Source: an uncultured Granulosicoccus sp. (GTDB lineage: Bacteria; Pseudomonadota; Gammaproteobacteria; Granulosicoccales; Granulosicoccaceae). From it: 64,000 nucleotides of DNA. Location of the stretch: NCBI GenBank assembly GCA_937924505.1, contig CALDSR010000004.1, positions 1 to 64,000 on the forward strand, given 5' to 3'. A program made the translations under genes and the position numbers. This document shows positions 17,378-52,824 of this stretch, piece after piece (position 1 is the stretch's first letter; the number at the start of each line of letters is the position of its first letter). The notes under the pieces are model-generated. The model ran no database searches. It saw only the letters and a program-made list of their open reading frames with translations, and was not told the DNA's origin.

Positions 17378-17413
17378 TTCTTTGTTATTACATGTTAGAT
17401 ACAGGAGAGTGGA

Positions 17414-21065: not shown

Positions 21066-21076
21066 AAATGGATGAC

Positions 21077-21105
21077 AGGCGCCTTCGCACACAGTGAAGG
21101 CGCCT
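21077..21105 (+). terminator. 10-bp perfect hairpin between two surface-protein genes
   Basis: AGGCGCCTTC and GAAGGCGCCT pair perfectly around a 9-nt loop, 12 nt after the stop of the upstream gene, followed by TTATTC. It is a strong hairpin with a poor T-run; it may attenuate rather than stop transcription into the 21122 gene, whose start is only 17 nt further. Confidence 0.7.
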
Positions 21106-21121
21106 TATTCCTGTGATTATT

Positions 21122-27313: not shown

Positions 27314-27852
27314 AAGAGCGGGTGCGCCTGGTTCTTATGACCCTTGCGCTTTTGCCTGTGGTTAACGCGTGTGTCAGCACTGAAGAGCTCTATGCACAAT
27401 ACGACTTACATTCGTGTGAGGTGGATCTTCCAGAACCCCGAATACAACAGGCGACTCTTGCTTTCAGTCAACAGCTGTGGAATCCAGCTGTGTATTTTGA
27501 CTACGATGATCATGAACTGGATGAAGAAGGTTATGAGCTTCTGGAAGTCACCGCCGCCATCATGAATCAGCGCGAGGAGCTTAATGTGGGTTTGCAAGGT
27601 TTTGCTGATCGAATTGGCGGCATCAGTTACAACATTCGTTTGTCGGGCAAGCGAGTCGACACCGTGATGCGATTTTTGACCGAACGTGGCATAGCGCCTT
27701 CGCGCATCGTTGCACAACCGTTGGGCGAAGGCTTGCCGCAGTTCGGCTCGAACGATGCTGAGGCAAGAGCGACGAACAGACGGGTCGAGTTGGTATTGCT
27801 CGACGCTAAAGGACGTCCGATAAGTCCATTGTTCGAGTTTTCGGATTTGTAG
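27298..27852 (+). CDS. OmpA-domain (probable lipoprotein) partner of the barrel protein
   Basis: 184 residues from ATG 27298, which lies 16 nt inside the preceding gene: strong translational coupling. N-terminal basic and hydrophobic signal ending VVNAC, a lipobox with an unusual Asn at -2. The OmpA/MotB peptidoglycan-binding domain fills residues of about 65-175: AVYFDYDDHELDEEGYELL, LQGFADRIGGISYNIRLSGK, then ARATNRRVELVLL with the Arg pair that binds diaminopimelate. It probably ties the barrel protein to the cell wall, as Pal or OmpA-type proteins do. An upstream in-frame TTG (27289) is less likely. Confidence 0.85.
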   Translation: MAIRLKERVRLVLMTLALLPVVNACVSTEELYAQYDLHSCEVDLPEPRIQQATLAFSQQLWNPAVYFDYDDHELDEEGYELLEVTAAIMNQREELNVGLQGFADRIGGISYNIRLSGKRVDTVMRFLTERGIAPSRIVAQPLGEGLPQFGSNDAEARATNRRVELVLLDAKGRPISPLFEFSDL

Positions 27853-27856
27853 ATTC

Positions 27857-36800: not shown

Positions 36801-39800
36801 TGGATAATATCGATGTGACTCCACTTGCTGAGGGGACATTGGGCATTGTCGTCAGTGCCGAAGACGGTGCCGGCAATAGTGCCAGCGCGACGCCAGCCAA
36901 TATCGAACTTGATATTTCCGCGCCATCGTTGGCCGTGAATGCTGTCGCTGGAAATGACGAAATCAATATTGCAGAGTCATTGCTTGATCAAACAATATCT
37001 GGCACCAGCCAGGATCTGGTGGATGGTTCAACGGTTACCGTTGATGTCAATGGTCAAAGCTACACGGGCATTGTGAGTTCAAACAGCTGGAGTGTTGTCG
37101 TTCCAGCTGCTGATGTTCAAGTCTTTGATCCGATCGAAGAAATAACGGTCAATGCCAGTGACAGTGCTGGCAATGCTGCTACACCTGTTGCTTTTATTGT
37201 TACAACGGTATTGTCTGCACCATCACTCGCTGTTGATTCAATAGCGGGGGATGATGTCATCAACGCCGCTGAGGCACTGTTGGATCAAACAATATCCGGA
37301 ACAAGCACGGATCTCGACGATGGTCAGGTCGTGACCGTAAACGTCAATGGGATTGACTATACGTCAGCGGTGACCGCAACTACCTGGAGTGTGCTCGTAC
37401 CGACTACTGATGTGCAGGCGTTCGGGTCTGTCGAGACAGTCACTGTCACAGCTAGTGATACAGCTGGTAACGCCGCGACTCCAGCGACAGTCGATGTGCT
37501 AACCGATACAGCTGCACCAATATTGGTATTGGATGCGATCACAGGTGACGATCGCATCAATGCTGCGGAAGCGGCGTCTGATATCACGGTATCGGGAACA
37601 TCAGAAGGCCTTCTTGACGACGAGACGGTTCTGGTGTCTCTCAATGGCCTCGATTACATCGCGACAGTGAACAGTGATGCCTGGAGCCTGACTATACCCG
37701 CATCTGATGTCGCCGCACTCACGGACGGCAATCAGGTAACCGCGAACGCAACAGATGCAGCTGGCAATGACGCACTGCCGGTTTCACAAACGCTGATCAT
37801 CGATACCATCGTGCCGGTCGCATCAATCAATCAACCCTCACTGGCGAGCGCAGCGAATTCAAGCAATTATCAGGTCAGCGGCGCTTGTACGATTGACGAT
37901 GGATCACTCGATGTCAGCATTACTGGAGCTACACCTGCCTCTCAAAATGTTGCCTGTGCGTCCGATGGCAGCTGGACAGCTACGTTTAATATAAACGGAG
38001 TTGTTGACGGGCTGGATACCGTTGTGGTTAACGCGAGTCAGATCGATGCCGTCGGAAATGTTGGTATAGCCCCGACGGTGACTGCCAATAAAGATACCTC
38101 ATCCCCCTCGATCAGCATTGCAACGATCGCTAGCGATGATGTGATCAACCTGTCAGAGTCTGGTACGCAACTGGTGATCAGTGGTACGACATCGAATATC
38201 AGCAACGGCCAACAGGTATCTGTTAGTGTCGCTGGAGTAGCTTATACGAATGCAGTGAACAATAATCAATGGCTGGTGTTGGTGCCCGCCAGTGAAATTC
38301 TGACGTTCGGTGCTTCAGAGACAATCACCGCTGATGTCTTGACGGCCTCGGGTTTGGCAGCTGATAGCGCTACACGCGATATCAGTATTGACTTGGTTGC
38401 ACCAGCAACGCCGACGGTGGCAACCCTTGTTACGTCGTTGGAACGACCCACGATAACGGGTACGGCGACCTTGTCTGCCAGTGATAGCTTGACGGTTGTG
38501 ATTGACACCGTGCCGTATGTGATCGACGACGGTAACTTGAGTGTTGATGGTCTTGGTGGTTGGAGTCTGACGATCCCTGCAGGCAGTGAATTGTCTGATG
38601 GTGTGTACGATGTGCAAGTAACTGCGACCGACAGTGCAGGTAATGCGAGTTCAATAGCGGGTACGGACGCACTGACGGTTGATACGACCGCACCGGATGC
38701 ACCGGTGGCACCATTGGATCTGGCGGCATCAAGTGACAGTGGTGCAAGCGATACCGATGACGTTACGAACGATAGCGCGCCGTTACTTGAGTTAGTGTCC
38801 AGCAGTGCAGCTCCAGGTACGACCGTCAGGATTTTTGCCAGCGCGATTGAAATCGCGACCACGACCTTGGACGGCAGTGGCGGATTCAATGTGAACAGCA
38901 GTGTGCTGAGCGATGGGGTACATTCGATCAGCTATCGGTTCGAAGACGCACTCGGAAATATGAGCGCCTCATCGCCGGCCCTGGCAGTGACGATCGACAC
39001 GGTTGCGACAGTTCCGGTGATCACAACACCAATTATGAGTGACGGGCTTATCTCGTCAGCAGAAGAATCAAGTGTGCTGATTGAAGGTTTGACGGAGGTC
39101 GATGCCGAGCTCGAGATCCAGATCAGTGATACGAGTGCGGGAACTGTCAGCACGACAGTGACTTCCACCAGTGGTGGAAGCTGGAGCACTGGCGCGAATT
39201 TGCTTGATATCAGTACGTTGATAGAAGGTAGCTTGCAAGTCGTTGCGACAGTCACGGACCTTGCCGGCAATACGGCCACGAGTGTGGCGGAGTCAGTGAT
39301 CTATGACCCGATAGCGCCGACCGAGCCAACGGTAGTCGCCCAGACAACAAACTCAACGACGCCAACCTTGGGCGGTACGGTGACGCTCAACCCGGGAGAT
39401 TCATTCACCGTGACAGTGGCGGGTACCGAATACAGTGAAGGGACAAACCTGACTCAGGATGGAATGAACTGGATATTGGTGATCCCGGCGGGATCACCCT
39501 TGGTCGAAGGTGACTATGAGGTCGTGGTTACGGTGACAGATGAGGCAGGTAACTCGACCAGCGATACCGTGATGAATGAGTTGGTCGTGGATCTGACTGC
39601 GCCACAGGATCCGAGCACAGCACTGGATCTGATCGCCGCAAGCGATACCGGTGCGAGTGATACGGACAATCTGACGAACCTGATGACAATCGATGTGGCC
39701 CTGGCGGCGGGAAGTGCCGAGGCAGGGGTAACGGTTGACGTGTTTGTCGATGGTGCACCGGCTGCGACAACGACAGCAAATGCGGACGGTAGCGTGAGTG

Positions 39801-42800
39801 TGACCTTGACAGGGTTGGTTGATGGGACACCGAGTATCACATACACCCTGATGGATGAAGCAGGCAATGTCAGTGCTGAATCACCGTCGCTGGATGTGAC
39901 GATTGACGCTGATATAGCGGCACCAACAATTGACACACCCATTGCGATCAACGATATCGCTAACTCGAATGAAGCGGGAGCAGTGACGCTCGCGGGTACA
40001 GCTGAACCGAACAGTAACGTGACAATTATCATTAGTGATACTGCTGCAATGATTCTGACTCTGTTGGCGACCTCAGATGCCAACGGTGACTGGGTGGTCG
40101 CAGATGTCGATTTGACAAGCTTGCTTGATGGTGACTTGTCGATTGATGTTGCGGCTGGTGACGATGCTGGAAACACGGCCTCCTCAGCTACCGTGTCAGT
40201 GAATCTCGATACGGATCCACCGACGTTGACGTTGGCGACGGTGTCTGATGACAATGTCATCAATGCCGCCGAATCTTTGCTCGATCAAACAATTTCAGGC
40301 ACGAGTACCGGGCTTGTCGATGGTGCGACGATAACCGTCAACGTCAATGATGTTGACTATTTCGCAACGGTATTGAGTGGTGTCTGGAGTGTGTTGCTGC
40401 CATCCGCTGATGTTCAGGCCTTTGATTCCGTGGAGACAATTACCGTTACCGCAAATGACGCTGCTGGAAATTCGGCTACGCCCGCGACTGCTGATGTCGC
40501 GGTTGATCTGGCAGTGCCGGTGCTGGTACTTGACGTAATCGCTAGTGACAATCGACTGAATGCAATTGAAGCCCAGACGGATGTTCTCGTTAGCGGGAGT
40601 AGCACTGGTCTGAATGATGGTGCCAGTGTCGCTGTTGCAGTCGATGGCGCAGTTTACGAAGCATTGGTGACCGGAAATGTCTGGTCTATCACAGTACCAT
40701 CAGCAATCGCAGCTGGACTGCCAGCCAGTACCGTGATTACAGCTGATGCGAGCGACAGCGCTGGCAATAGTGCCAATCAAATTGAGGCAACATTGGTGGT
40801 TGATCTTGCCGCACCCGTTGTTTCAATCGACCCCCTGCAGCTTGCAACCGCCGCTAACCAGAACAGCTTTCAAGTCGGAGGCAGTTGTACGGCTGGTAAT
40901 GGCGTGGTGCAAGCCGCAATAACTGACGCATCACCAACGACCCAGACAGTCGCTTGTGCTGCTAACGGGTCATGGCTTGCGACATTCGATATTGCTACTG
41001 TCGCAGACGGTGTGGATACGGTCGCTGTAACCGTCAGTCAGACTGATGTTGCGGGTAATGTCGGGGCAGCAGGGCCGATCACGGCGAGCAAGGATACCTC
41101 CATAGCTGCTATCAGCATTGCAACTGTGTCTGGCGATGACACCATCAATCAGTCTGAAGCTGGAAGCTTTGTTGTTTTGGAAGGTACAACCGGCGGGATC
41201 GAGAACGGTCAGCTTGTCACAGTAAATGTCGCAGGGTTCACCTTCACCAATAGCGTGAATAACAATCAATGGCTGGTGCTGTTACCGCCCAGTATTGTTC
41301 TGACATTTGGGCCTTCAGAACAGGTCACCGCTGATGTTGCGACGCTAGCCGGGCTGAACGCACAGACGGCGGCACGAACAATTACGATTGACCTGACTCC
41401 GCCTGATGTGCCCGCTGTCATGACACTCGTCACCAATGTGACGACGCCGATAATCACGGGTACTGCAAATACCAGCAATGGAGAAACTCTTGAGGTTCGC
41501 ATAGACGGAACTCTCTACACACCGGGCGACGGCAACCTTGTTGATCATGGTGATGGCACCTGGACACTGGCCATACCGGCTGATATGCCATTGAACGAGG
41601 GCGTATTTGCCGTTGAGGTGACATTGATTGACGCTGCGGGAAATCCGATCGTCGAATCAGGAGCCGGTGCTCTGACTATTGATACAACAGTCCCTGATGC
41701 ACCATCGGTGGCTCCTGATCTTGTAGCTGCAGATGATAGCGGTACAAGCGACAGTGACGATATTACCAATGTGTCGAATGCAAGGTTTTCAGTAGCAGCC
41801 GGTGAAGCCTTGCCAAACACCGATGTGGAATTGCTCGCCGATGGTGTCGTTGTTGGTACCGGTCGTGTCAATGCCGATGGAAGTTTTGTAGTCGAGTCTT
41901 CAGGCCTTTCCGATGGAACCATTGATATCACTTATCGCTACATCGACGAATCGGGAAATATGGGTTTGCCATCAACTGCGCTAAGCGTTGTCATCGATAC
42001 TGCCACCGATGTGCCGCTTATTGATGAGCCAATCATGTCTGACAATGTGATCAACGTAGCTGAAAGTAGCGTTACTGTCGTCTCGGGCGTTAGTGAGGCA
42101 AATGCAAGTCTGGTTCTGACCTTGGAAGATGCTGTCTCCGGGAGTGTTGTGAGCACGCCTTTTACAGCCGATAGCAGCGGTAACTTCACTAGTGTTCCGA
42201 TTGATGCTTCATCGCTAGAAGAAGGGGCTATTGATATTTTTCTTGAAGCGACGGATATAGCCGGCAATGTCGCCAGTGCAATTCCTGTATCGGTCAGCCT
42301 GCAAACGACAGGACCTGAATTACCGATAGTCGCGGCGCTGGTGACAAACAATCCATTGCCGACCATTACTGGAACGGCGCCGATCAGTGTTGGTAGCACA
42401 CTTGAAATCGTACTTGACGATCTGGTCTATAGCTTGTCAGACGGAACACTTGTTGACACCGGATCGGGTGGTTGGTCCTTGACGGTTGATGGCAACTCTC
42501 CTCTTGTCGATGGGGTCTATGATCTGAGTGTGACAGCGACTGATGCGGCTGGTAATACCTCAGTCGATACGACGGTTAATGAATTGACAGTCGATACGGT
42601 TGCACCAGCAATCCCGACAGTCACGCCGTTGCTTGCCAACACCATGACACCGGTTCTAAGCGGAACAGCGGTGCTCGGCAACACTGAACGATTGACGGTT
42701 GAGATTAACGGGATAACGTATGGAGCCTTTGATGAAGCAGCCATTGCAGTTGATGAATTGGGGTTCTGGTTTGTGGCTATCGATGCTGAAGCGCCATTAC

Positions 42801-45800
42801 CGCACGATATTCATGAAGTGGTAGCTCGCGTCTCGGATGCGGCCGGTAATGTCAGTACTGATACATCGGTATTCGAAGTAGAAGTAGATCTGATTGCGCC
42901 TTCTTTGACGCTTGCTGCGATCGATGATGACGATGTCATCGGTGTTGCCGAGACTTTATCGCCGCTGACATTAAGCGGTACTACGGATGCGGCAGATGGC
43001 AGACCGATCACTCTGGATATTGACAGTGACTTGTTCAGTTCAGTCGCTACTTCGGGTAGCTGGTCGATCACGTTGACTCCAGCGGAGCTGACATCCCTTG
43101 CTGATACGGTGGTTATATCGGCAACTGTTGCGGACCTGGCCGGGAATGTATCCATTGCTGCAACACGTACTCTCAGCATCGATCGTGCTGCTCCTGCCTT
43201 GACAATCGATCCTCTCCCTGCGATCACTGCCTTGTCAGTGCCTGCGGTTGATATAACCGGTAGTTGTGAAACTGGTGTGCCCGTTGACATCAGTGTGACG
43301 TCTGCGACGCCTGTTTCTCAATCCGTAGGCTGTGTAGATGGACATTTCATAGCGACGTTTGATCTTTCAGCGATAGCGGATGGTCCAGAAGCTATTGAGA
43401 TTACTGCAGCGCAATTGGACATTGCAGGTAACCCGGCAAGTGGGAGCTTGTCTGGTGACAAGGATACTGTAGCGCCTTCAGTGACTATTGCCAATCTCAG
43501 TCATGGTAGTGATGCGCTTATTAACAATTCAGAAGCGCTCAGTTTCAATGTTACTGGTGGAACGTCTGCGGATGCTCTCATCGGCGATACGATTACCTTG
43601 ATTGTCAGTGATGGCGTGTCAACAGTTGAAGCGACGACTGCGGTCGAATCGTCAGGCACCTGGGAGGTGGCTGCACTGGATATTTCATCCTTGATTGATG
43701 GCCCGATCACGTTTACAGCGACTGTCACTGATACGGCTGGTAATGTATCTTTACCCGATGTTAGTGGTTCGGTGCTCCGAACTGTTTTGCCACAGATCAC
43801 CATTGAGTTGATGTCTCCTGTTTGGGAGAACATGTTGACGCTTGGTGGCGTGTCTGGATTGCCGGACGGAATGGGGGCGCCCGTTACGATAACGGATGCT
43901 GATGGCAATGCCCTCTGCGCTCCGTTTGCCGAGTTCGGTTTCTGGAATTGCGTGTTACCAGAAGCCGTTCCGGATGGTGATCATGATTTCGTTGCCAGTG
44001 TAACTGATCAGTTCGGTAACACGGGTAGCGCGAACCTGTCGGTCACGATTGATTCAAATATCGATACCGATGCGGATACGATTCCAGATTCCATCGAAGG
44101 TACCAACGATACCGATAGTGATGGTGTTCCTGACAACGTTGATCTTGATTCTGACAACGATGGCATTCCGGACAGCATCGAAGGTAGTAGTGATCCTGAT
44201 GGTGATTCCTTACCCTCATTCCGCGATCCGGATTCGGATGGTGATGGTTTTCCTGACAACGCTGAAGCGGGGGTTGATCCTTCGAACCCACAGGATACCG
44301 ATGGCGACTCCATAGCGGACTTCATCGATCTTGACAGTGATAACGATGGCTTGCCTGATGCCGAAGAAGGCACCGGCGATGCTGACGGCGATGGCATTAT
44401 CGACGTATTGGATAACGACGACAACACTGATGATACTCCCGATAACCAAACGGGTTCGGATGATGTTGATTCAGATGGCGATGGTATTGCTGATACGAAT
44501 GAAGGCAATGGTGACAGTGATGATGATGGTATCGCTGATTTCCTTGATACCGACTCTGATAATGATGGTTTACCAGATAGCCTGGAAGGTGAACTGGATT
44601 CGGACAATGATGGAATACCTGATTTTCAGGACCGTGATTCGGACAACGACACGATTAGTGACGCGCTAGAAGGAACCGAAGATACTGATGGTGACAGCCT
44701 GCCGAACTACATTGATGTCGATAGTGATGGCGACGGAATCGATGACATTGTCGAGGCGACACTGGATTCCGATGCAGATGGTACGCCCAACCTGCTTGAT
44801 CTTGATAGCGACAACGACAGAATTCCTGACGCAATCGAAACTGATAATGATAGTGATGGTGATGGAGTCTATGACGCCATTGATCTTGACAGCGATAATG
44901 ACGGGCTACCTGACGCTTTTGAAAGTGTACGAAGTGGCGTTACCCCACACGGCCTGGATACTGGCTTAGCCAGTCGTTCGGGGCTGGTTCTTGATGACGA
45001 TGCCGGTGCGCGTCAGTCCCGTTTGTTCGATGATGATGTGCCAGAAATTGCGATCGATGTTGATGGTGATTCCGTGCCGGACTATCTGGATCTGGACAGC
45101 GACAACGATTCCATACCTGACACCATCGAGGCGGGTGCCTTGGATGCAGATCTGGATGGTCGCATCGATAGCTTCATCGATCGGAATCAAAACGGATGGA
45201 ATGATGCAACAGAGCAGATGCCATTGGATGCTGCTGACACTGACAATGATGGGCTGCGGGATTTCCGTGATCTCGACTCGGATCAGGATGGTCTGCCGGA
45301 TCTATTCGAAGTCGAAGGTAATGATGTTGACCGCAACGGCCTTGTTGATGCCTTCATCGATGCCAATAACGATGGGCTTGACGATGCGGTCGCCGTATTC
45401 CAGGCAATGCTTGTCGATAGTGATAGTGACGGTATCTATAACTTTCGTGAAATCGATAGCGACAACGATGGTCGAAACGATCTCGTGGAAGCAGGCGGTA
45501 ATGATGCTGACGGTGACGGTATCGTTGATACGTTGAAAGACAGTGACGGTGACGGTGTGCCGGACTCGGTTGATGTTGATGTGACCGGTGGAAGTGATGC
45601 CGACAACGATGGTATCGATGATCTTGCCGATGCTGATTTGGTTGCCGGTGAGGATCGGGATTTCGATGGAATTGTCGATGCTCGCGATCCGGATGCGAAT
45701 GGCGATGGGTTTGCCGATGCAGCGGTGCCGACCTTGGGCACATCCTTGCCAGATAGTGATGGTGATCAGGTTCCTGATTTCCAACAAGCAACCGATGCAA

Positions 45801-47383
45801 GACCGGTTCGAACTGGCGCAACGGGTAATGGGTTTGGCTGTTCGATTGGCAACGGTACTGGCAGCTCAACCGATTCTGGGTTGATGTTGTTGTTAATTGC
45901 AGCGTTCGCCGCTATGTGTAGCTCTGTCAGGCGTAGGCGGCGAATCACTCGATCACGACTCGTTCGGACGGCAATGCTTGCTGCTTTGGTGTTCAGTGTT
46001 TCCGCGTGCGGAACATTGTCGAGAGTTTTGCCCGGAGATCGGGGTAATCAATCAAATGATGTGTCGGCTAATCAACAGCTGCAGCGTGCTGAGAGAGAAC
46101 AGATACAGCGTGAGAAAGCCGGGATAAAGGCTGAAATAACACAAAGAAATCAAAGTAAACGTCGCTTTTATGCAGGGCTTGGCATCGGTGTTTCGATACT
46201 GGATCCCATCACTGAGGATACGGGTTTCACGCTCGAAAGCGGCAGTAGTACCGCCGCTCATTTGCATCTTGGTTTTGACTACTCACCGCGTATTACGTTG
46301 GAATTGAATGCCGGTTCGCTGGGCTCGGCAAGTCTCGAGCCAACGTCCACAATTGACTATAGCGTGGTCGCTGGTAGTGCACTGTTCTATTTTGGCGAAG
46401 CCAACGAGTCGCTGTCAGGTCGTGAGAACATACATGCATACGGTCGCGTGGGTCTCGGTATCTTGAGTACCAGCGGTTCCGGCGTTGCTATCGAACAAGT
46501 CAATGGTGCTCAACTTCTCGTTGGACTTGGCGTCGAGTACGGTTTTTCAAACGGTCTGGCGGCACGCGGCGAGTTAATTTCTTACGATAGCGATGCGCGA
46601 GCTGTTCAACTGGGATTGATCTACCGCTTCAAGCGATCTCAGAACGACACCAGTGCGACTGATATATCTCGCCGTGTTCAAACGCCAACGCAAACCCGTA
46701 CGTCAAAGCAAACAGGAAAATCCAACGAAGCGCCAACGCGAGAGATAAGGCGTAATCCAGAGCCGATGAAAAAGGTGGAACCAGTCGATAAAGCGCTGCA
46801 ACGATCGACCCCGACTGTTCCATTGGCGAAGCCTCAACCCAAGCCTGCAGCCAAAAGACAGGAAGCTCCTGCGCAAACCGCCAAGGTGATTCCTCAGACG
46901 AGCTCCAAGCCCAGGAAGACTGTGCCTGATGTAAACACGGACTCGGACGGTGATGGTGTCAGCGATAAACAGGACGCTTGTGACAATACACTTCGCGGAG
47001 CGTCAGTCGATGCATTTGGCTGTGCCGTGGCACATGGTTACATCGAGGGGCTTGAATTCAAAGCCAATACAGACGTGTTCAAGCCAGGTGCAACACGTGT
47101 GCTTGATCGTATTGTCGCCGAGATGAAAGCATCGCCACGCTCCCGCATCACTATCAGCGTACACACCGACGATAGCTTCCCGAAGAATCAGGCCAAGCAG
47201 ATCACCACCAAACAGGTGATAAAAATTGTGAAGTACCTCGCAAAAGAAGGTATATCAACGAAACGTATCGTGGCCAGATCCTATGGGGGCACGAAACCAT
47301 TGGTAGCTAACATTACCGATGCGAACCGATCACGAAATAGACGTGTGGAAATCACAAACCTTGCCGATAGTGTGAACAGATAA
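30821..47383 (+). CDS. giant Ig-repeat/TSP3 adhesin fused in frame to an OmpA-type lipoprotein
   Basis: 5,520 residues without a stop. Signal peptide (VLASALASAAHA), then a choice-of-anchor-L-like head (about 45-290; FVFASEEYNEYAPPDGAF). A DUF11-like module comes next, then about 40 Ig-like modules of about 100 residues (430-4390; DAAGN and DTTAP motifs at the junctions). The Asp-rich TSP3 stalk spans about 4410-4985 (DSDNDGIPDSIEG type). A sorting-type tail follows: GCSIG at Cys5007, a hydrophobic LMLLLIAAFAAM and RRRRR. The frame then runs straight into a second signal with lipobox FSVSAC (Cys5063), a helical linker, an eight-strand-type barrel, a TSP3 hinge and an OmpA domain (about 5390-5515) ending RSRNRRVEITNL. 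No good ribosome site at ATG 30821; ATG 30839 is an alternative. An internal start at ATG 45914 or 45974 could release the OmpA part. Confidence 0.8.
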   Translation: MSGSQSMGLSTVARFYCLTGSRHLTLVLASALASAAHADLLITETLDASTLANEVMDTSNGDLIIDSESLTGFAGQAGTFTNGLSVPGFLDFENGIIMSSGSVAAVAGPNLGDGTSTALPNGIENDPDFDLLTDSANGTDDAIFIEIDFIPNGDTLTGTFVFASEEYNEYAPPDGAFSNNNQFYDVMAFFVNGVNYSLTADGDDVSINSVNKTLNAADFVDNDFGDFNPAPTPFNIEPDGFTRRLSWTAPVNPGVVNTLKFGVADGGDAAFDSWLLIDRDSFKVLSNPVDVDLAVSISGTGGEIASGTPLVITTNVENSGANATEREITVVHTLPADVTINGGIAASVAESGVNAAEWVCVSTAEVPQTVECRSTTPIGITGGNSTSVFNFSTDPIDVALVGNSLLNTADVLTTDIDTGSGNNSFSSSTLVVATDSTPPAVSINDVPPVTAGIAPYTVILTFDEVVTGLDLADVVVGNGAASELSILSPIEASVVIAPDATGDVTIDVPSGAVQDASGNDSAASATAITIFDPTSPVLSINDAPGVIANTDPFDVTFSFSAPVTGFALNDISVSNGVPSNFTMIDASTWSATISPDTTNDVVVSVAAAAAQSSSNGVDSSSDSVTVIVNSSSPTGVLSGAPALVSSLASYPITLTWSEDVTDMQASDINVTNGVISSFSPDTPLVAGNVYTFDVTPAGDGEVIVLIPEASVVDVASNGNSLVSVTTIVDTLPPVLTISAVAGDDYINASEDDAPVIVNGTSTGLQNGASIDVNVGGVLYVATVSDNSWSISIPATSVQALNASEIITADAVDAAGNPASQSTRSIAYDAVAPSQPSVDTSLISNVLPVLTGSANTATGDTLTVLVNGILYTAGDGNLVDDLAGGWILTIPPGNDLSDGNYSIVVTLTDSAGNTSVDTSNNELTIDTTPPAAPSVPVDLLAASDSGTLDNDNITNVAAATFSVPAGSATSGAVVTLYSNLLAIGTTTALADGSFSLSAATLVEGTENISWTTSDAAGNESANSPPLSVTLDTSVPAPIINAPQTADNVINAVEANPFSVSGTSEAGSVISISISDGSNPAVTASVSTDGAGNWSVGGLDLTGLDDGFLLIDATAADVAGNSGASTSSNTSLNTSSPVLVLNAIALDNALNATEMTQDLVISGTSTDLPDDGVVTVTIDADTYLATVFSGLWQVTIPATDVTTFIDGEVISADAINDAGNSANTVSIALTVDAIAPVVAINPAVLATSSNESNFQVSGACAVGDELVSVSIAGATPLTQDVSCASGGSWTATFDISAIADGIDVIVVDATQADAVGNAGAAATVTANKDTGMPSISVSTVAIDDVINIDEAAVDLVIVGITVDIEDGQLVTVSIDGADYTTTVVSNSWSVVVPVSAVSAFEIDEDITANVSTLAGLAAPEAVRSIDIDTIAPSLPTVATLISNDTTPTLTGTAVVEAGDKLIVTVNGIDYEAGVGALVVSGTDWTLPVPSPNALTDNTYDVAVSLTDAAGNETVEPGLSALTVDTTAPAAPPVAVDLIAADDSGSSSVDDITNVSAPTFVVDDGTLNPGDLVTVFADADEVGTTVVNPAGGFSLVSATLLDGNFSISYTLADALGNVSSSSPALPVVIDTVASAPSIDPDIADDDIINASEMNNVLISGITEANATVTIVFTDSASNTESVVTTAEASGIYTLNATPADISALTAGSIEVSVSVDDIAGNVSTSTAVSVQLDPDAPSPATVDTLLSNSGTPTVTGSVFLGAGESIIVTLNSQSYSEGVDLVVTGDTWSLIVPAVDSLNEDTYDVLVEVTDIAGNVSSDISIDELTIDLTAPADPGIALDLLASSDTGDSDTDNLTGLNTIDVAVPAGTATSGDTATIHLDGVPVGTVTVASDGGFGTSLTGLVDGNNTINYTLVDAAGNVSASSPDLVVIVDVDITAPTLTLPVAVDNQINSTEAVMVDLAGTAEPDSVVTVTIDDGDSSPLVLTVTSDSNGDWTLDNIDVTPLAEGTLGIVVSAEDGAGNSASATPANIELDISAPSLAVNAVAGNDEINIAESLLDQTISGTSQDLVDGSTVTVDVNGQSYTGIVSSNSWSVVVPAADVQVFDPIEEITVNASDSAGNAATPVAFIVTTVLSAPSLAVDSIAGDDVINAAEALLDQTISGTSTDLDDGQVVTVNVNGIDYTSAVTATTWSVLVPTTDVQAFGSVETVTVTASDTAGNAATPATVDVLTDTAAPILVLDAITGDDRINAAEAASDITVSGTSEGLLDDETVLVSLNGLDYIATVNSDAWSLTIPASDVAALTDGNQVTANATDAAGNDALPVSQTLIIDTIVPVASINQPSLASAANSSNYQVSGACTIDDGSLDVSITGATPASQNVACASDGSWTATFNINGVVDGLDTVVVNASQIDAVGNVGIAPTVTANKDTSSPSISIATIASDDVINLSESGTQLVISGTTSNISNGQQVSVSVAGVAYTNAVNNNQWLVLVPASEILTFGASETITADVLTASGLAADSATRDISIDLVAPATPTVATLVTSLERPTITGTATLSASDSLTVVIDTVPYVIDDGNLSVDGLGGWSLTIPAGSELSDGVYDVQVTATDSAGNASSIAGTDALTVDTTAPDAPVAPLDLAASSDSGASDTDDVTNDSAPLLELVSSSAAPGTTVRIFASAIEIATTTLDGSGGFNVNSSVLSDGVHSISYRFEDALGNMSASSPALAVTIDTVATVPVITTPIMSDGLISSAEESSVLIEGLTEVDAELEIQISDTSAGTVSTTVTSTSGGSWSTGANLLDISTLIEGSLQVVATVTDLAGNTATSVAESVIYDPIAPTEPTVVAQTTNSTTPTLGGTVTLNPGDSFTVTVAGTEYSEGTNLTQDGMNWILVIPAGSPLVEGDYEVVVTVTDEAGNSTSDTVMNELVVDLTAPQDPSTALDLIAASDTGASDTDNLTNLMTIDVALAAGSAEAGVTVDVFVDGAPAATTTANADGSVSVTLTGLVDGTPSITYTLMDEAGNVSAESPSLDVTIDADIAAPTIDTPIAINDIANSNEAGAVTLAGTAEPNSNVTIIISDTAAMILTLLATSDANGDWVVADVDLTSLLDGDLSIDVAAGDDAGNTASSATVSVNLDTDPPTLTLATVSDDNVINAAESLLDQTISGTSTGLVDGATITVNVNDVDYFATVLSGVWSVLLPSADVQAFDSVETITVTANDAAGNSATPATADVAVDLAVPVLVLDVIASDNRLNAIEAQTDVLVSGSSTGLNDGASVAVAVDGAVYEALVTGNVWSITVPSAIAAGLPASTVITADASDSAGNSANQIEATLVVDLAAPVVSIDPLQLATAANQNSFQVGGSCTAGNGVVQAAITDASPTTQTVACAANGSWLATFDIATVADGVDTVAVTVSQTDVAGNVGAAGPITASKDTSIAAISIATVSGDDTINQSEAGSFVVLEGTTGGIENGQLVTVNVAGFTFTNSVNNNQWLVLLPPSIVLTFGPSEQVTADVATLAGLNAQTAARTITIDLTPPDVPAVMTLVTNVTTPIITGTANTSNGETLEVRIDGTLYTPGDGNLVDHGDGTWTLAIPADMPLNEGVFAVEVTLIDAAGNPIVESGAGALTIDTTVPDAPSVAPDLVAADDSGTSDSDDITNVSNARFSVAAGEALPNTDVELLADGVVVGTGRVNADGSFVVESSGLSDGTIDITYRYIDESGNMGLPSTALSVVIDTATDVPLIDEPIMSDNVINVAESSVTVVSGVSEANASLVLTLEDAVSGSVVSTPFTADSSGNFTSVPIDASSLEEGAIDIFLEATDIAGNVASAIPVSVSLQTTGPELPIVAALVTNNPLPTITGTAPISVGSTLEIVLDDLVYSLSDGTLVDTGSGGWSLTVDGNSPLVDGVYDLSVTATDAAGNTSVDTTVNELTVDTVAPAIPTVTPLLANTMTPVLSGTAVLGNTERLTVEINGITYGAFDEAAIAVDELGFWFVAIDAEAPLPHDIHEVVARVSDAAGNVSTDTSVFEVEVDLIAPSLTLAAIDDDDVIGVAETLSPLTLSGTTDAADGRPITLDIDSDLFSSVATSGSWSITLTPAELTSLADTVVISATVADLAGNVSIAATRTLSIDRAAPALTIDPLPAITALSVPAVDITGSCETGVPVDISVTSATPVSQSVGCVDGHFIATFDLSAIADGPEAIEITAAQLDIAGNPASGSLSGDKDTVAPSVTIANLSHGSDALINNSEALSFNVTGGTSADALIGDTITLIVSDGVSTVEATTAVESSGTWEVAALDISSLIDGPITFTATVTDTAGNVSLPDVSGSVLRTVLPQITIELMSPVWENMLTLGGVSGLPDGMGAPVTITDADGNALCAPFAEFGFWNCVLPEAVPDGDHDFVASVTDQFGNTGSANLSVTIDSNIDTDADTIPDSIEGTNDTDSDGVPDNVDLDSDNDGIPDSIEGSSDPDGDSLPSFRDPDSDGDGFPDNAEAGVDPSNPQDTDGDSIADFIDLDSDNDGLPDAEEGTGDADGDGIIDVLDNDDNTDDTPDNQTGSDDVDSDGDGIADTNEGNGDSDDDGIADFLDTDSDNDGLPDSLEGELDSDNDGIPDFQDRDSDNDTISDALEGTEDTDGDSLPNYIDVDSDGDGIDDIVEATLDSDADGTPNLLDLDSDNDRIPDAIETDNDSDGDGVYDAIDLDSDNDGLPDAFESVRSGVTPHGLDTGLASRSGLVLDDDAGARQSRLFDDDVPEIAIDVDGDSVPDYLDLDSDNDSIPDTIEAGALDADLDGRIDSFIDRNQNGWNDATEQMPLDAADTDNDGLRDFRDLDSDQDGLPDLFEVEGNDVDRNGLVDAFIDANNDGLDDAVAVFQAMLVDSDSDGIYNFREIDSDNDGRNDLVEAGGNDADGDGIVDTLKDSDGDGVPDSVDVDVTGGSDADNDGIDDLADADLVAGEDRDFDGIVDARDPDANGDGFADAAVPTLGTSLPDSDGDQVPDFQQATDARPVRTGATGNGFGCSIGNGTGSSTDSGLMLLLIAAFAAMCSSVRRRRRITRSRLVRTAMLAALVFSVSACGTLSRVLPGDRGNQSNDVSANQQLQRAEREQIQREKAGIKAEITQRNQSKRRFYAGLGIGVSILDPITEDTGFTLESGSSTAAHLHLGFDYSPRITLELNAGSLGSASLEPTSTIDYSVVAGSALFYFGEANESLSGRENIHAYGRVGLGILSTSGSGVAIEQVNGAQLLVGLGVEYGFSNGLAARGELISYDSDARAVQLGLIYRFKRSQNDTSATDISRRVQTPTQTRTSKQTGKSNEAPTREIRRNPEPMKKVEPVDKALQRSTPTVPLAKPQPKPAAKRQEAPAQTAKVIPQTSSKPRKTVPDVNTDSDGDGVSDKQDACDNTLRGASVDAFGCAVAHGYIEGLEFKANTDVFKPGATRVLDRIVAEMKASPRSRITISVHTDDSFPKNQAKQITTKQVIKIVKYLAKEGISTKRIVARSYGGTKPLVANITDANRSRNRRVEITNLADSVNR
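34531..43200 (+). repeat. higher-order repeat of about 3,000 bp inside the giant gene
   Basis: The Ig-like modules fall into recurring types in the same order. A Cys-containing type (VSGACAVGD, VSGACTIDD, VGGSCTAGN, ITGSCETGV) starts near 34531, 37825, 40828 and 43200. Between the second and third copies the DNA lines up at an offset of exactly 3,000 nt over at least 37261-39060. For example GATCAAACAAT recurs at 37283 and 40283, and AATCAATGGCTGGTG at about 38264 and 41264. The first unit is longer by one extra module; the last is shorter. This indicates duplication of a ten-module block in frame. Confidence 0.8.
44050..45785 (+). repeat. GAT-rich TSP3 repeat array
   Basis: Dense GAT/GAC codons encode tandem motifs of the form D-x-D-x-D-G-x-x-D, as in thrombospondin type 3 repeats, which bind calcium and stiffen in its presence. 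A second array is at about 51547-52560 in the GEVED protein, and single copies occur in each OmpA protein. The bias also creates long meaningless antisense frames. Confidence 0.85.
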
Positions 47384-47436
47384 ACGAAATCTTGAATCGA
47401 CGTCCGAACTACTCAGGGTGTCACTGGGGCTCTGAA

Positions 47437-49335
47437 ATGGCATCTAAGCAACTAGTAAGAAAAAAGAATCTATCTAAACCGATCCGGATCGCATTGACGG
47501 TACTGATGGTGTCGTCTGGCATCGGTTGTGCGACTGTATCTGATCTGGCTTTAACCGAGCAATTTGCTCTTACACCTAATACAGAAGATTTTCGTTCACG
47601 ACTGTATGCGGGCGTGTCCGTTGGCAGCTCACAGGTAGATCCGGACACATCCGGCACCCGATTTAATGTTGAATCAGATTCTGACTCGGGCACTCAGCTA
47701 CGTATCGGTTACGATCATCACAACAGATTTGCCTTCGAGTTGGACACATCAGTGCTTGGTTCGGCTGAATTAGAAGAAGCCGGTACCAGTGTCAAGTATG
47801 CTGCCGCATCGGTTAGTGCCTTGTTCTATGGTATCAATGGTGTGCAGAATCGTTCAAGGCGCGAAGGTTTTAGTGCGTTTGGGCGTCTTGGCGCTGCAGC
47901 ATTAAGTCGCTCGTCGGAGGTGCAGCCACTCGAGAGCAGTAGTACGGTACCGGTATTGGGCCTGGGCGCTGAGTATGGGTTTGCTAGTGGGCTTGGTTTA
48001 CGCGCTGAAGTTACCCGTTTTGACAGTGATGTATCCTATGTTGGTATTGGCGCTGTATATCGATTTAACCAGTCACCTCGCACCATTCGCAATTCTTTGG
48101 CCGAGGCCTTCCAACCGTTGTTAAGCAAGAAGAAGACAACCGTTGCCAGCAACGGGCGTATTTTACATCGTGGTGCAGGTAGCATACGTTCTGCATCAAG
48201 CTCATACCCACGCTCCGAGACTCGGCATTCTGAGCCGACACTCGGTGCTGCTATGCCGAAGCGACAAGTTACGGGTACTCGTATTCAAACTGTTCAACCG
48301 TCAGCGTGGACTACCTCAGTTAGTCGTCATGATCGAGACGGAGATGGCATTCGTGACAGCAAGGATAACTGTCCTGATACTGCACCGGCAGTCTCGGTGG
48401 ATGATATCGGTTGTGGGCTTTTCGATACGGTACTTGACGACGTTATTTTTAAAAGCAACTCTTCGTGGTTAACACCACGTGCCCGCCGCCAATTGGACTC
48501 TTTGGCTGAAACTCTGTTGGCCTTTCCTGAAGCGCGTGTAGAGATTCGTGCGCATACGGATTCTAACGGACCGGCTGATACGAATCTGGCGTTGTCTTCT
48601 CGGCGCGCCGAAACCGTAGTCCAGTACTTGCAGAGTCGTGGTATCAATGAATTGCAGTTGAGAGCCCGTGGTTTAGGGGAGTCGCAACCGCGAGATTCAA
48701 ACGGCGACAGTGAGGGCCGCAAAAGAAACCGACGTGTTGATGTTGTCACATTGGCTAATCTGGACGATGCAGCAATTCGCACCGGAACACGAACGATTGA
48801 AAAGCAATCGGTTGCCGCCGCGGTCGCCGTAATGCAAACACCCAGGCGATCACAGGCGGGCGCTGAACCTGGTATCGCCGCTGCGAAACCGGTTGAGAAA
48901 AAGCCCACTGGCTTAGCCGAAGTTGTAGTTTTCCCAGCGGTCAAAGGCTTGCCGGTCGAACCGTTGCCCAAGCCAGGACACGTGCCAGGCTTGACCATCA
49001 CCGGTGTTGTTGAAAATGTGACTTTCGAAACAGGATCTGCCAACCTGACCGATTCTGCGGAAGTCGCGCTGGTGCGGGTTGAGCAGGAGCTCAAGGCAAA
49101 CCCAACCGTGCGCATTGCGGTTATGGCTCACACTGATGATCAGGGGGATGCCGAGGACAACAAACTTCTGTCCGTCCAACGTGCGGAGGCAGTCGTGGCT
49201 CGATTGGTCAGCCGTGGAGTCGAGCAATCGCGCCTCAAGGCTGAGGGTTATGGTGAGTTGTTGCCACTGGTTCAAAACGTCACCGCTGCAGACCGCACGC
49301 GAAATCGCCGGGTAGAAATTAGGGTTCTTCGTTAG
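47437..49335 (+). CDS. lipoprotein with barrel domain and two OmpA domains
   Basis: 632 residues from ATG 47437, chosen because it gives a proper lipoprotein signal (KKNLSKPIRIALTVL, lipobox SGIGC); the frame is open upstream to a TTG at 47392. A small barrel region (about 45-210) begins FRSRLYAGVSVGSSQVDPDT. A TSP3 hinge (DRDGDGIRDSKDNCPDT) and an OmpA domain follow (about 330-440; VEIRAHTDSNGPADTNLALS, KRNRRVDVVTL). A second OmpA domain lies at about 520-632 (IAVMAHTDDQGDAEDNKLLS, TRNRRVEIRVLR). It is a paralogue of the OmpA half of the giant protein and of the next gene; the second OmpA domain is the extra feature. It starts 53 nt after the giant gene, so probably the same transcript. Confidence 0.85.
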   Translation: MASKQLVRKKNLSKPIRIALTVLMVSSGIGCATVSDLALTEQFALTPNTEDFRSRLYAGVSVGSSQVDPDTSGTRFNVESDSDSGTQLRIGYDHHNRFAFELDTSVLGSAELEEAGTSVKYAAASVSALFYGINGVQNRSRREGFSAFGRLGAAALSRSSEVQPLESSSTVPVLGLGAEYGFASGLGLRAEVTRFDSDVSYVGIGAVYRFNQSPRTIRNSLAEAFQPLLSKKKTTVASNGRILHRGAGSIRSASSSYPRSETRHSEPTLGAAMPKRQVTGTRIQTVQPSAWTTSVSRHDRDGDGIRDSKDNCPDTAPAVSVDDIGCGLFDTVLDDVIFKSNSSWLTPRARRQLDSLAETLLAFPEARVEIRAHTDSNGPADTNLALSSRRAETVVQYLQSRGINELQLRARGLGESQPRDSNGDSEGRKRNRRVDVVTLANLDDAAIRTGTRTIEKQSVAAAVAVMQTPRRSQAGAEPGIAAAKPVEKKPTGLAEVVVFPAVKGLPVEPLPKPGHVPGLTITGVVENVTFETGSANLTDSAEVALVRVEQELKANPTVRIAVMAHTDDQGDAEDNKLLSVQRAEAVVARLVSRGVEQSRLKAEGYGELLPLVQNVTAADRTRNRRVEIRVLR

Positions 49336-49577: not shown

Positions 49578-50795
49578 ATGAGAAAGTACGGAATGAAAGT
49601 GGATCTTAATGTTGAAGGTGGCGTTACAAGCGAGCGCGGCGAAGGCTTGTCAGGAAATCCCGGTGCCGCTAGCGCAAGCGCTGGTCGCTGGATTCGGCAT
49701 GCTGCACTCATTCCCCTTGGTCTGTCGCTGACCGCTTGTGGCGTGCTCGGTGGTGGTGGTCGCGAAGACTATGACGGCCGAGTTTACGTTGGAGCTGGAG
49801 CCCTGATCAGTGAGGTTGATCCGGATACCGATAATGTCCCCGGTGTTTCAGTAGCGGATTCTTCGAGTGCTGGTGGTTCACTGGCAATAGGCTACGACTT
49901 CAGTCCAAGGTTCAGTATCGAAGGGCATATTGCCGACTTGGGCGAGGCGGATCTGTCACCTGAAGGCTCGATCGATTATCAGGTGGGTGGAATAAGCGCG
50001 ATTGTTTATGGTCTGGCAAGTGAAGAACGCCGCGCGCGACGCGAGGGCTTCTCCGTGTTTGGACGTTTGGGCGTCGGCGCCCTGGAAAATGATGCGGAGG
50101 TGGTGGAGTTCGAACGCTTGAATGATGTTCATTTACTCGCCGGTGTGGGTCTCGAATACGGGTTTGAAATGGGCTTGGGTGTCAGGGCCGAGCTGGTTGC
50201 ACACGACACGGATGCGCAATATGGGCAGCTCGGACTGGTGTATCGCTTTGGTGGATCGAGTCGCGGCCAAAGTGCGCCGGTGAGCAGGTCAGTCGAGCCG
50301 GTAGAGCCTGATGTATCTACCAGAGCTGTTCCAGTTCCGGCGCCGTCGAATTCGCGCATAAACATTGACACCGATGGCGATGGAGTGACTGACGCGATTG
50401 ATCAATGTCGGGATACCGCAGAAGGATATCCGGTAGACAGCACGGGCTGCGATGCTTTCGGTGGCGTCGTTGAAGGCGTGAGTTTCAATTCGAGTTCAGA
50501 TACGCTGACAGCAGATGCGCAATCGGTACTTGACGGTGTGGCTGAAACGCTTGGCCAATACCCTGATGTCGTGGTCAGCATCGAAGCCCATACGGATAAT
50601 CAAGGTGGTGCTGCAGGTAATCTTGAATTGTCCAAACAACGTGCCCTTTCGGTTGCGCGTTATCTGGTCAGCAAGGGTGTTTCCGGAGCGCAACTGAAGC
50701 CTCAGGCATTCGGCGAATCACGACCACGCGTCAGTAACGCAACTGCAGCAGGCCGCGCGCAAAATCGACGCGTAGAAATTAATATCGTCAAGTAG
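49578..50795 (+). CDS. OmpA-family lipoprotein with N-terminal barrel domain
   Basis: 405 residues. The lipobox LSLTACG lies near residue 54, after a long polar N-terminus; a later start is likely but no in-frame ATG lies close to the hydrophobic core, so ATG 49578 is kept. The barrel-like region is about 65-235 (DYDGRVYVGAGALISEVDPD, AIGYDFSPRFSIEGHI). A TSP3 hinge (DTDGDGVTDAIDQCRDT) and an OmpA domain (about 295-403; VSIEAHTDNQGGAAGNLELS, AQNRRVEINIVK) follow. Same architecture as the C-terminal part of the giant protein and as the upstream gene. It should link outer membrane and peptidoglycan. Confidence 0.87.
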   Translation: MRKYGMKVDLNVEGGVTSERGEGLSGNPGAASASAGRWIRHAALIPLGLSLTACGVLGGGGREDYDGRVYVGAGALISEVDPDTDNVPGVSVADSSSAGGSLAIGYDFSPRFSIEGHIADLGEADLSPEGSIDYQVGGISAIVYGLASEERRARREGFSVFGRLGVGALENDAEVVEFERLNDVHLLAGVGLEYGFEMGLGVRAELVAHDTDAQYGQLGLVYRFGGSSRGQSAPVSRSVEPVEPDVSTRAVPVPAPSNSRINIDTDGDGVTDAIDQCRDTAEGYPVDSTGCDAFGGVVEGVSFNSSSDTLTADAQSVLDGVAETLGQYPDVVVSIEAHTDNQGGAAGNLELSKQRALSVARYLVSKGVSGAQLKPQAFGESRPRVSNATAAGRAQNRRVEINIVK

Positions 50796-50979
50796 GTCAT
50801 GGTCCTGTTAAAAATTGTGGAGTCGGTCAATATAGTGAGTCAGGCTAGTTACGAAGGGTAGATGGGCTGATTGCGATACTATAAGATATCAGTGTCAAAA
50901 CCCGGTCACTGTTGTGATGGCAGTCGCCGGGGTAGCTCCGCGCTCTGAGTTAGCGCATAAATCGGAAAGCCTTAAGGAT

Positions 50980-52824
50980 ATGTTCAAACGTCATCCGTTA
51001 TCTGTATTGATTCCCGCGCTGATGATCACGGCCGGTCCCGTCCTGGCAGTAGATACTGGCGATGCGCCGTCAAGCTATGGTTTGGCCAGCCACGAAGTGA
51101 TTGCCAACGGGCCTTTTCTCGGAACCATTGGTCCCGATGACAATGACCCGGTTGCAACGATCGCCGCTGACGGTGACGATCTGGCCAATGGTGATGACGA
51201 GGACGGAATTTCGACGTTTCCTGTGCTCATCCAAAACTCGAAGGCGTATTCGCTGACGGTAGTCGCGACTAATCCGAGCGCTACAGACGCCAGTTACACA
51301 GCCTGGATAGACTTTGATGGAAATGGTCACTTCGAGGCGGACGAGGCATCCACACCAATGGTTATTCCTGCCGGTACCGGCGCTGATGACAACCTCCTTC
51401 TGTGGCCATCACTCGATGGCATTTCCACCGATTTTGTTGGTATCTCTTACGTGCGTGTGCGAATCACCACGGATGCCTTGGGTAATGATCAGGCGGCAGG
51501 TGCGGCCTCTGACGGAGAAGTCGAAGACTACGCGGTAGAATTTATTGCTGATACCGACGGCGATTTAATCCCGGATCAAGACGATCCAGATGATGACAAC
51601 GATGGCATCCCGGATACGGTTGACGGTGTTGGTGTTGATACCGATGGCGATGGTATCGACAATCTTCTGGATACGGACTCAGACGGTGACGGTATCTCCG
51701 ACTTTGAAGAAGCTGGTCCGAATCCGCAAGCGCCTGTAGACACGGATAATGATGGTACGCCTGACTTCATGGACACTGATTCCAATGACGATGGCACGCC
51801 TGATTCGGGTTCTGCTGATGATGCTGATGGTGATGGACTCGCTGATGCGGTAGAAGGCGCAGGTGACGCCGATGGCGATGGAATCCTGAATATTCAGGAT
51901 ATTGACAGTGACAACGATACGATTCCGGATGCAGTTGAAGCGGTCGATGCTCAAAACCCTGTTGATACCGATGCTGACGGTATTCCGGATTTTCTCGACC
52001 TCGACAGTGACAACGACGGCATCCCTGATTTATACGAAGCGAGTGCCGGTGATATCGATACAGCCTCCCTTGACGCCGATGGAGACGGTCGTGTTGACAG
52101 CGGATCGGTTTTCGGTTCAAACGGTCTGGTAGACGCCGTCGAGACGGCTGCAGATTCCGGCATTCTCGTTTTCCAGTTGGTTGATACTGACAGTGATGGA
52201 TCACCCGATTACGTTGATATTGACAGCGACAATGATGGCTTGAACGATACCGTCGAATCCGGTGGGTCAGATGCCGATGGCAACGGCGTTGTTGACGCAT
52301 TGGTGGACACGGATAGTGATGGTATTGATGACAACGTGGATGCGTCGATTACCGGTGGAGCCGATGCTGACGCGGACGGGATTGATGATGCCTTCGATAG
52401 TGACTTCGTCCTGACAGCCGATGCCGACAATGACGGTATCGTCGATGCCAGTGATATCGATGCCAATGGCGACGGCATCGTTGACGATAGTAATGCGATT
52501 GCCAATGGCACCTTGCTTGATGACGATAATGACGGCGTTCCGGACTTCCAGGACACAGATGACTCCAGCACACCTCTCACACCTATCGCTCCTGGCGACA
52601 CCGATGATGAGGGCCCAACAGCTGGTCCAACAGTGCCCGATGTCCCTCGCGTAGAAACTGGCCTTGATGGTATTGCTGGCTGTTCAATCACCGCAGGCAA
52701 TGCCCGTGGGTTTGATCCAGTGCTGCTTTTACTTGTGCTCTCCGCACTTGGCGTCCTCGTGAGAGGGCGTCATGTCAGCGGACGGCGGCAAGCCATTCGC
52801 GTGCAACCCACAAAAAAAATGTGA
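50980..52824 (+). CDS. secreted GEVED/TSP3 protein with Gly-Cys C-terminal sorting-type tail
   Basis: 614 residues from ATG 50980, chosen because FKRHPLSVLIPALMITAGPV then forms a normal Sec signal; the frame is open back to about 50914. A GEVED domain follows (about 25-190; DTGDAPSSYGLA, YTAWIDFDGNGHF, SDGEVEDYAVEF). A TSP3 array fills about 190-527. The tail has GCSI at Cys568, a hydrophobic stretch (PVLLLLVLSALGVLV) and a basic end (RGRHVSGRR). This layout resembles MYXO-CTERM/JDVT-CTERM-type sorting signals and matches the tail inside the giant protein. The product is likely processed and placed on the surface beside it. Confidence 0.8.
   Translation: MFKRHPLSVLIPALMITAGPVLAVDTGDAPSSYGLASHEVIANGPFLGTIGPDDNDPVATIAADGDDLANGDDEDGISTFPVLIQNSKAYSLTVVATNPSATDASYTAWIDFDGNGHFEADEASTPMVIPAGTGADDNLLLWPSLDGISTDFVGISYVRVRITTDALGNDQAAGAASDGEVEDYAVEFIADTDGDLIPDQDDPDDDNDGIPDTVDGVGVDTDGDGIDNLLDTDSDGDGISDFEEAGPNPQAPVDTDNDGTPDFMDTDSNDDGTPDSGSADDADGDGLADAVEGAGDADGDGILNIQDIDSDNDTIPDAVEAVDAQNPVDTDADGIPDFLDLDSDNDGIPDLYEASAGDIDTASLDADGDGRVDSGSVFGSNGLVDAVETAADSGILVFQLVDTDSDGSPDYVDIDSDNDGLNDTVESGGSDADGNGVVDALVDTDSDGIDDNVDASITGGADADADGIDDAFDSDFVLTADADNDGIVDASDIDANGDGIVDDSNAIANGTLLDDDNDGVPDFQDTDDSSTPLTPIAPGDTDDEGPTAGPTVPDVPRVETGLDGIAGCSITAGNARGFDPVLLLLVLSALGVLVRGRHVSGRRQAIRVQPTKKM

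Follow-up and report, generated by a model that had tools for sequence, protein, structure and literature searches.

A giant adhesin gene from Granulosicoccus appears to encode a secreted polyprotein with a shared basic hairpin between an internal sorting tag and an OmpA lipoprotein

The 64,000-nucleotide stretch of DNA analysed here (the window; contig CALDSR010000004.1 of an uncultured Granulosicoccus sp.) carries a giant adhesin gene whose sorting tail does not end the protein: the frame continues through an arginine cluster into a lipoprotein signal and a barrel-OmpA protein. We propose, with a probability of about 0.72, that its product is a secreted polyprotein from which two cuts, one at each side of a basic hairpin, would release an adhesin lipidated at its C-terminus and an OmpA lipoprotein resembling TraB. 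The initial annotation had offered two readings of the junction, a true fusion that anchors the adhesin directly or two proteins that overlap inside one frame. The anatomy it described is correct, and both readings fit less well than a third, a single precursor cut twice.

The frame from 30821 to 47383 is uninterrupted, 5520 amino acids (aa) with zero internal stops, so that the adhesin tail, the lipoprotein signal and the OmpA part do lie in one open reading frame (ORF), organized as follows.

30821..47383, + strand: precursor ORF of adhesin, hairpin and OmpA lipoprotein (from the translation; homologues P0002–P0007 are fused likewise)
30821..30934, + strand: N-terminal secretory signal, residues 1–38 (cleavage site judged by eye)
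31004..31666, + strand: choice-of-anchor L domain NF038133 (154.9 bits, cut-off 27)
32414..44050, + strand: rod of immunoglobulin-like repeats, with 18 Big_13 stretches plus Big_6 and Big_12 (approximate limits)
44051..45778, + strand: Asp-rich stalk, residues 4411–4986, TSP3-like by eye
45836..45943, + strand: internal sorting tag of GFGC, hydrophobic helix and RRRRR (MYXO-CTERM, 20.3 bits, cut-off 20)
45929..45967, + strand: basic loop RRRRRITRSRLVR, residues 5037–5049, the tag end and the n-region of the second signal
45968..46009, + strand: second signal, with h-region and lipobox VSAC (Cys5063 at 46007–46009)
45842..46006, + strand: predicted excised hairpin, residues 5008–5062, 55 aa and 5.8 kDa (from the two putative cut sites)
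46160..46630, + strand: eight-stranded OmpA-type barrel, residues 5114–5270 (profile and model)
47057..47341, + strand: OmpA peptidoglycan-binding domain PF00691 (profile)

The tag motif reads GNGFGC, with Cys5007 at 45839–45841, and the cluster Arg5037–5041 occupies 45929–45943. These residues, Cys5063 and the in-frame ATGs at 45914 (Met5032) and 45974 (Met5052) are where the initial annotation had placed them. With its charged n-region, h-region and lipobox, the second signal has the features of a probable LspA substrate. The part beyond it matches the barrel profile PF13505 (31.6 bits, cut-off 28.7) and PF00691 (47.3 bits, cut-off 27.2), and an AlphaFold2 model built from eight sequences (mean predicted local distance difference test score 67, predicted template modelling score 0.40) contains eight strands, with a C-terminal domain that resembles OmpA; a structure comparison of this model has OmpA entries in its top PDB rows. 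On this moderate-confidence model, together with PF00691, the C-terminal part is of the OmpA type. Its calculated mass of 49.4 kDa agrees with the free fragment of about 50 kDa that had been anticipated.

From this arrangement we infer lipidation, cleavage at both sites, pairing of the products at the surface and type II secretion of the adhesin. The N-terminal signal would start Sec export of the adhesin, and the helix after Cys5007 would halt transfer and leave the Arg cluster in the cytoplasm, in line with the positive-inside rule. The same basic loop would serve as the n-region of the second signal, from which export of the barrel-OmpA part would restart. A protease of the MrtJ/myxosortase type would cut after lipidated Cys5007 to leave a ~499 kDa adhesin anchored by a lipid at its C-terminus, Cys5063 would be processed by Lgt and LspA to give the 49 kDa TraB-like lipoprotein, and the 55-residue hairpin would be thrown away. 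In relatives with an AxA site, signal peptidase I would take the role of LspA. The mature proteins would act together at the surface, having been produced 1:1 at one site, with the barrel-OmpA protein anchoring or displaying the adhesin. Secretion of the adhesin would probably use the type II system: the GspD secretin, which the published MYXO-CTERM export model needs, scored above cut-off in 17 of 19 genomes tried, versus 2 of 14 controls.

The hairpin is conserved in the features on which such processing would depend. In 49 fused copies from this and other genomes, each with at least one Lys or Arg in the loop as our script required, the basic loop that joins the tag helix to the second hydrophobic stretch is 2–41 aa long, with a mean net charge of +5.2. 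The loop of one copy (L030) is just RRRR, and therefore the Arg cluster must serve both signals, as the initial annotation had supposed when it described the cluster as doubling as a lipoprotein n-region. In another fused copy (L043, G003 C70), the loop is only KR, weakly basic, and there is no usable internal start codon. The tag Cys is kept in 46 of the 49, and a lipobox ([LVIAM][ASTVIG][GAS]C, sought in the second hydrophobic stretch) follows the loop in 27, against a mean of 3.2 and a maximum of 11 in 1000 shuffles; together with its retention in two close homologues, this makes the junction more than a chance arrangement. A loose AxA-type site is present in 21 of the 22 copies that lack a lipobox, a count to which the shuffle control did not extend. 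Over 27 pairs in eight groups picked by eye, the ratio of nonsynonymous to synonymous differences (pN/pS) is 0.45 for the hairpin and 0.23 for the barrel, with pooled pS of 0.65 and 0.73, respectively. Hairpin codons thus evolve faster than barrel codons and yet remain open and in frame. The reading frame has been preserved over long times.

This divergence also bears on the second reading of the initial annotation, that the OmpA lipoprotein is made also or mainly from an internal translation start at 45914 or 45974, with the adhesin as the long product. We consider this unlikely. A frame left unread should have acquired stops at the observed synonymous divergence, and start codons at the junction are neither universal nor well equipped. 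The window does have its two in-frame ATGs, that at 45914 giving a well-charged n-region, and 35 of the 49 fused copies have an ATG followed by Lys or Arg; 14 lack such an ATG, and three have no in-frame ATG, GTG or TTG that would leave a Lys or Arg ahead of the second h-region. No Shine-Dalgarno-like match was found at 45914 or at 45974, and such matches (at least four bases) are rarer at junction candidates (8/92) than at the other in-frame starts of these frames (426/2441). Single copies apart, the window’s included, internal initiation is unlikely as a common route, and separate starts within one frame are in general unsupported. Promoter-like and terminator-like sites around the window junction number five and eight, versus shuffle means of 4.2 and 5.8.

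The tags and their candidate proteases connect the junction to known sorting systems. The window tag passes MYXO-CTERM TIGR03901 marginally (20.2 bits in a second cut), and 479 residues follow its Arg cluster, away from the C-terminal position expected of that family. At E ≤ 1 the profile search did not report the window’s own junction tag for JDVT-CTERM (NF033191), and GlyGly-CTERM (TIGR03501) is absent from the five families that it did report there. Membership in midcut-by-XrtH NF033207 (13.3 bits, cut-off 45) and in lipo-invert NF058595 (11.0–11.3 bits, cut-off 37) was rejected. The weak NF058595 alignment at 45881–46018 spans the helix, Arg cluster and lipobox, and this family, which matches 12 of 47 hairpins at E ≤ 1 and scores above cut-off in none of eight related genomes, may describe a related tail. 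The TraB profile NF033763 gives the window OmpA part 60.5 bits against a cut-off of 700, and its likeness to TraB is one of architecture alone.

A JDVT-CTERM search run genome-wide in eight genomes (G001–G008), blind to the barrel, placed 29 of 34 hits above cut-off, 18 of them C-terminal (0–18 aa left) and 11 internal. All 11 internal tags run in frame into this barrel, one of them cut by a contig end, and none of the 14 control genomes gave such a hit. MrtJ scored above cut-off in 44 of 48 Granulosicoccaceae genomes (no match in G031, G033, G034 or G039) versus none of the 14 controls; for rhombosortase the counts are 47 of 48 and 0 of 14. In five of the eight genomes (G001–G005), a barrel hit is followed by MrtJ 0.76–1.18 kb further along the same strand. 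The barrel-OmpA gene and mrtJ are adjacent in G001, the one case read, where the frame before the pair is presumably a porphobilinogen synthase, which it resembles; G002–G005 are alike by hit positions. In one region outside the family (L238, G259 C79 1-3300), a stalk protein with a JDVT-type tag, a barrel-OmpA protein and MrtJ are encoded by consecutive genes. We read the barrel as part of the sorting system.

Outside the family, tag type follows protease content. The junction-barrel profile, at 1e-25, matches 29 of 369 evenly drawn Gammaproteobacteria genomes, a set in which the family has at least four members. Twenty regions from outside the family were read: the 15 chosen for frames of at least 987 aa are all fused, and of the other five, four are split and one is unclear (L237, unclassified). 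In the ten genomes that hold the 15 fused copies, rhombosortase is above cut-off throughout, Cys-type hairpins occur solely in G123 and G259, and only these two have MrtJ above cut-off; the eight with Cys-less hairpins have none. This match (2/2 versus 0/8) has a probability of 1/45, calculated by hand and leaving out G112 and G353, where the Cys tags are split. In Cys-less hairpins, L227 for example, the tag, RRRR and a type I-like signal precede the barrel. Of 16 Cys-less hairpins, six match GlyGly-CTERM TIGR03501 at E ≤ 1, the best at 5.4e-4, and of 47 Cys-type hairpins, 44 match JDVT-CTERM at the same threshold. Within the family, G028 and G026 have the two tag types side by side, with Cys-less, Gly-rich fused tags (L137, L141, L145) beside MrtJ and Cys-tag copies.

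These distributions make it very improbable that the internal tag is an inert relic of a recent gene fusion and that the second signal alone is used. The Cys is retained in nearly all of these diverged copies, the Cys-type hairpins still match JDVT-CTERM, and the tags are Cys-less in the eight of ten outside genomes without MrtJ above cut-off. A relic would suit the alternation of fused and split states described below and the Cys-type hairpins of G034 and G039, where MrtJ was not matched, and PMC11980579 suggests that a similar protein of Myxococcus xanthus, MXAN_5598, may have arisen by the joining of two genes.

The fused layout recurs in relatives, the comparison that the initial annotation had proposed for the junction. 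A homologue search with residues 4990–5520, limited to proteins 0.55–1.75 times the query length and scoring the 1055 candidates richest in shared words, among which lone OmpA proteins could not appear, returned six giant homologues (P0002–P0007; identities 74, 57, 33, 34, 36 and 22%), all fused. P0002 and P0003 keep the whole tag-to-OmpA arrangement, and the tag GC motif is present in five of the six, P0007 having GGGGS instead. A genome scan gave nine loci, eight of them in metagenome-assembled genomes named Granulosicoccaceae or Granulosicoccus, and the junction-barrel profile, which a lone barrel also matches, hit all 48 Granulosicoccaceae genomes. The phosphoenolpyruvate carboxykinase (PEPCK, pckA) of the window is up to 82% identical to the PEPCKs of these genomes, and the window is therefore in or close to that group. 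The open junction recurs in many genomes, among them P0002 and P0003 and one genome assembled as a single contig, so there is next to no chance that an assembly or sequencing error conceals a stop at 45930–45975, which the initial annotation had named as a refutation along with relatives that always have two genes. That many relatives keep the same layout makes it look like a design rather than an accident.

Relatives are also found in the two-gene state. We read 108 regions besides the window: the listed barrel hits of G001–G008 together with 60 others drawn from 33 further genomes, 40 of these picked by a long frame and 20 mostly by score. A script sorted 136 distinct barrel copies into 50 fused, 17 split, 67 alone and two too near an edge, counts that give no frequency estimate because regions were chosen by frame length and score. 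Inspection upheld all 50 fused calls and all but two of the split ones; of the 15 that stand, 12 have a Cys tag and three (L033, L038, L048) lack it. L037 and L152, called split by a regular expression, were rejected, the upstream frame being no tag protein. One fused copy with a JDVT tag (L072) was omitted from the 49-copy hairpin analysis. At the 12 split loci with a Cys tag, the tag gene stops 86–218 nucleotides ahead of the barrel of the next gene, so the split relatives show the end and start of each protein at the hairpin. G024, a single 7.78 Mb contig, has three fused copies and one split copy. Two fused copies have unusual layouts. In L046 (G004 C37) the frame stops ~215 aa past the tag, right after the barrel, with the OmpA domain missing through either true truncation or a sequence error, and in L052 (G005 C70, a 12049-aa frame) a run of TQGKL/TQGKP repeats gives an unusual spacing between the tag Cys and the helix.

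Both states occur at a single locus. The unit upstream of pckA, scored on the same contig, is fused in 12 genomes (G001, G002, G012, G026, G030, G034, G035, G036, G038, G039, G041, G042) and split in eight (G003, G004, G024, G025, G028, G044, G045, G046); five more copies (L156, L157, L161, L163, L164) have the barrel gene without a preceding tag gene. In a careful tree of 23 sequences, comprising the copies from this locus, a fused G021 copy, a second G002 copy and the third OmpA of the window, three changes between fused and split are required (bootstrap range 2–4). A quick tree of 138 barrels requires five with unpaired barrels ignored and L072 labelled as alone. Because the trees are unrooted, fusion and fission look the same in them.

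The initial annotation’s reading as a direct anchor, with the adhesin covalently joined to the barrel-OmpA part, would agree with the continuous frame seen in many genomes, and an anchor in the cell wall could readily be provided by the OmpA part. It is nevertheless quite unlikely, given the retention of a cleavable second signal and a tag type that tracks the local protease. Both cut signals are conserved, and split relatives end one protein and start the other at the very hairpin that would have to stay in place. A retained hairpin would also make two crossings of the inner membrane, in a chain whose barrel has to arrive at the outer one.

Several observations weigh against a polyprotein cut twice. 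G034 and G039 lack a MrtJ match and yet have Cys-type hairpins (L117, L118, L128, L133), which incomplete assemblies could explain. Sub-cut-off matches occur in controls, in 11 of 14 for MrtJ and in up to 14 of 14 for rhombosortase. The two-versus-eight protease match comes from few, possibly related genomes, and G411 has a sub-cut-off MrtJ-like match (54.9 of 75 bits). The window tag clears the MYXO-CTERM cut-off by just 0.3 bit and goes unreported for JDVT-CTERM. Most fused copies carry an in-frame start near the loop, seven of the 49 with a Shine-Dalgarno-like match. Finally, the fused and split numbers come from a sample partly selected by frame length and score, and the well-supported (starred) branches of the careful tree by themselves force just one change.

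The giant ORF is followed by two barrel-OmpA genes, a GEVED/JDVT-CTERM gene and pckA:

47392..49335, + strand: paralogue as a separate gene, with barrel and two OmpA domains (likely start 47437, by eye)
49578..50795, + strand: paralogue as a separate gene, with barrel, OmpA domain and its own lipobox
50914..52824, + strand: GEVED protein with a C-terminal JDVT-CTERM tag at 52678–52773 (37.6 bits, cut-off 27)

The protein with two OmpA domains falls within a starred group of 14 unpaired barrels, several from the pckA locus. The second paralogue shares at most 62% identity from barrel to end, or 72% over the barrel, with relatives’ fused or split copies. The GEVED protein, three genes downstream of the giant gene, is likely a conventional substrate of the same sorting protease. 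The stretch 13758–30469, upstream of the giant gene, encodes DUF11-repeat surface proteins (one of 2066 aa), a surface-protein island, with an OmpA-like lipoprotein gene at 27289–27852 (by eye) inside the DUF11 block.

Beyond this gene, the balance of evidence leans towards a widespread class of polyproteins that share the basic loop, receive two cuts, supply adhesin and barrel in equal amounts, work with sorting enzymes of either the MrtJ or the rhombosortase type and interconvert with two-gene forms. If this is true, some bacteria would routinely make two envelope proteins from one Sec-exported chain by means of a membrane hairpin trimmed by two unrelated proteases, and the hairpin would be a natural and testable substrate on which myxosortase-like enzymes and rhombosortase act at a site other than the C-terminus. 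Each adhesin would have a barrel in the outer membrane as its fixed partner, and TraA/TraB-like pairs would extend beyond the myxobacteria. Such processing would also account for the implausible single proteins of 5,000–12,000 aa ending in OmpA that are found in annotations.

Among known systems, the Cys-type hairpins are most like JDVT-CTERM/MrtJ, with a Cys-bearing tag, helix and Arg cluster and with MrtJ in most related genomes. The Cys-less hairpins outside the family (e.g. L227, L230) resemble GlyGly-CTERM/rhombosortase, unlike the window tag, which is of the Cys type. Midcut-by-XrtH NF033207, likened by name only, has a tripartite sorting signal away from the C-terminus, presumably cut at that position, and a different enzyme. 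An internal signal peptide also yields two proteins from the fbcH cytochrome b/c1 precursor of Bradyrhizobium, which differs in belonging to a respiratory complex and in having no sorting tag. JDVT-CTERM is normally C-terminal, as far as the accessible part of PMC11980579 describes it, and is internal here. An ArtA substrate cited there by title has, like the window, a tripartite signal away from the C-terminus, where it is presumably cut, and its enzyme is different.

The accessible text of PMC3325183 describes TraA/TraB of M. xanthus as a MYXO-CTERM surface receptor beside an OmpA-domain partner; traA and traB share four bases where their ORFs meet, and mutants of either have the same phenotypes. 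TraA/TraB is encoded by two genes, whereas the window has one frame. A literature search, whose coverage excluded most subscription papers, gave no account of the hairpin design beyond MXAN_5598 of M. xanthus, which we compared by its published description and not by its sequence. According to the accessible part of PMC11980579 (Guo, Haft and Wall, 2025), a single ORF encodes this protein, which has a large adhesin region, an internal MYXO-CTERM, a barrel of the outer-membrane type and OmpA domains; it is treated as atypical and as a possible gene fusion, and its N-terminal part is proposed to be processed and anchored at the surface. That part of the paper mentions no second signal sharing the Arg cluster, no protein family and no case in Gammaproteobacteria. 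New beyond MXAN_5598 are the shared second signal, its conservation in the family and beyond with both kinds of tag, the occurrence of fused as well as split forms, and the correspondence between tag and protease.

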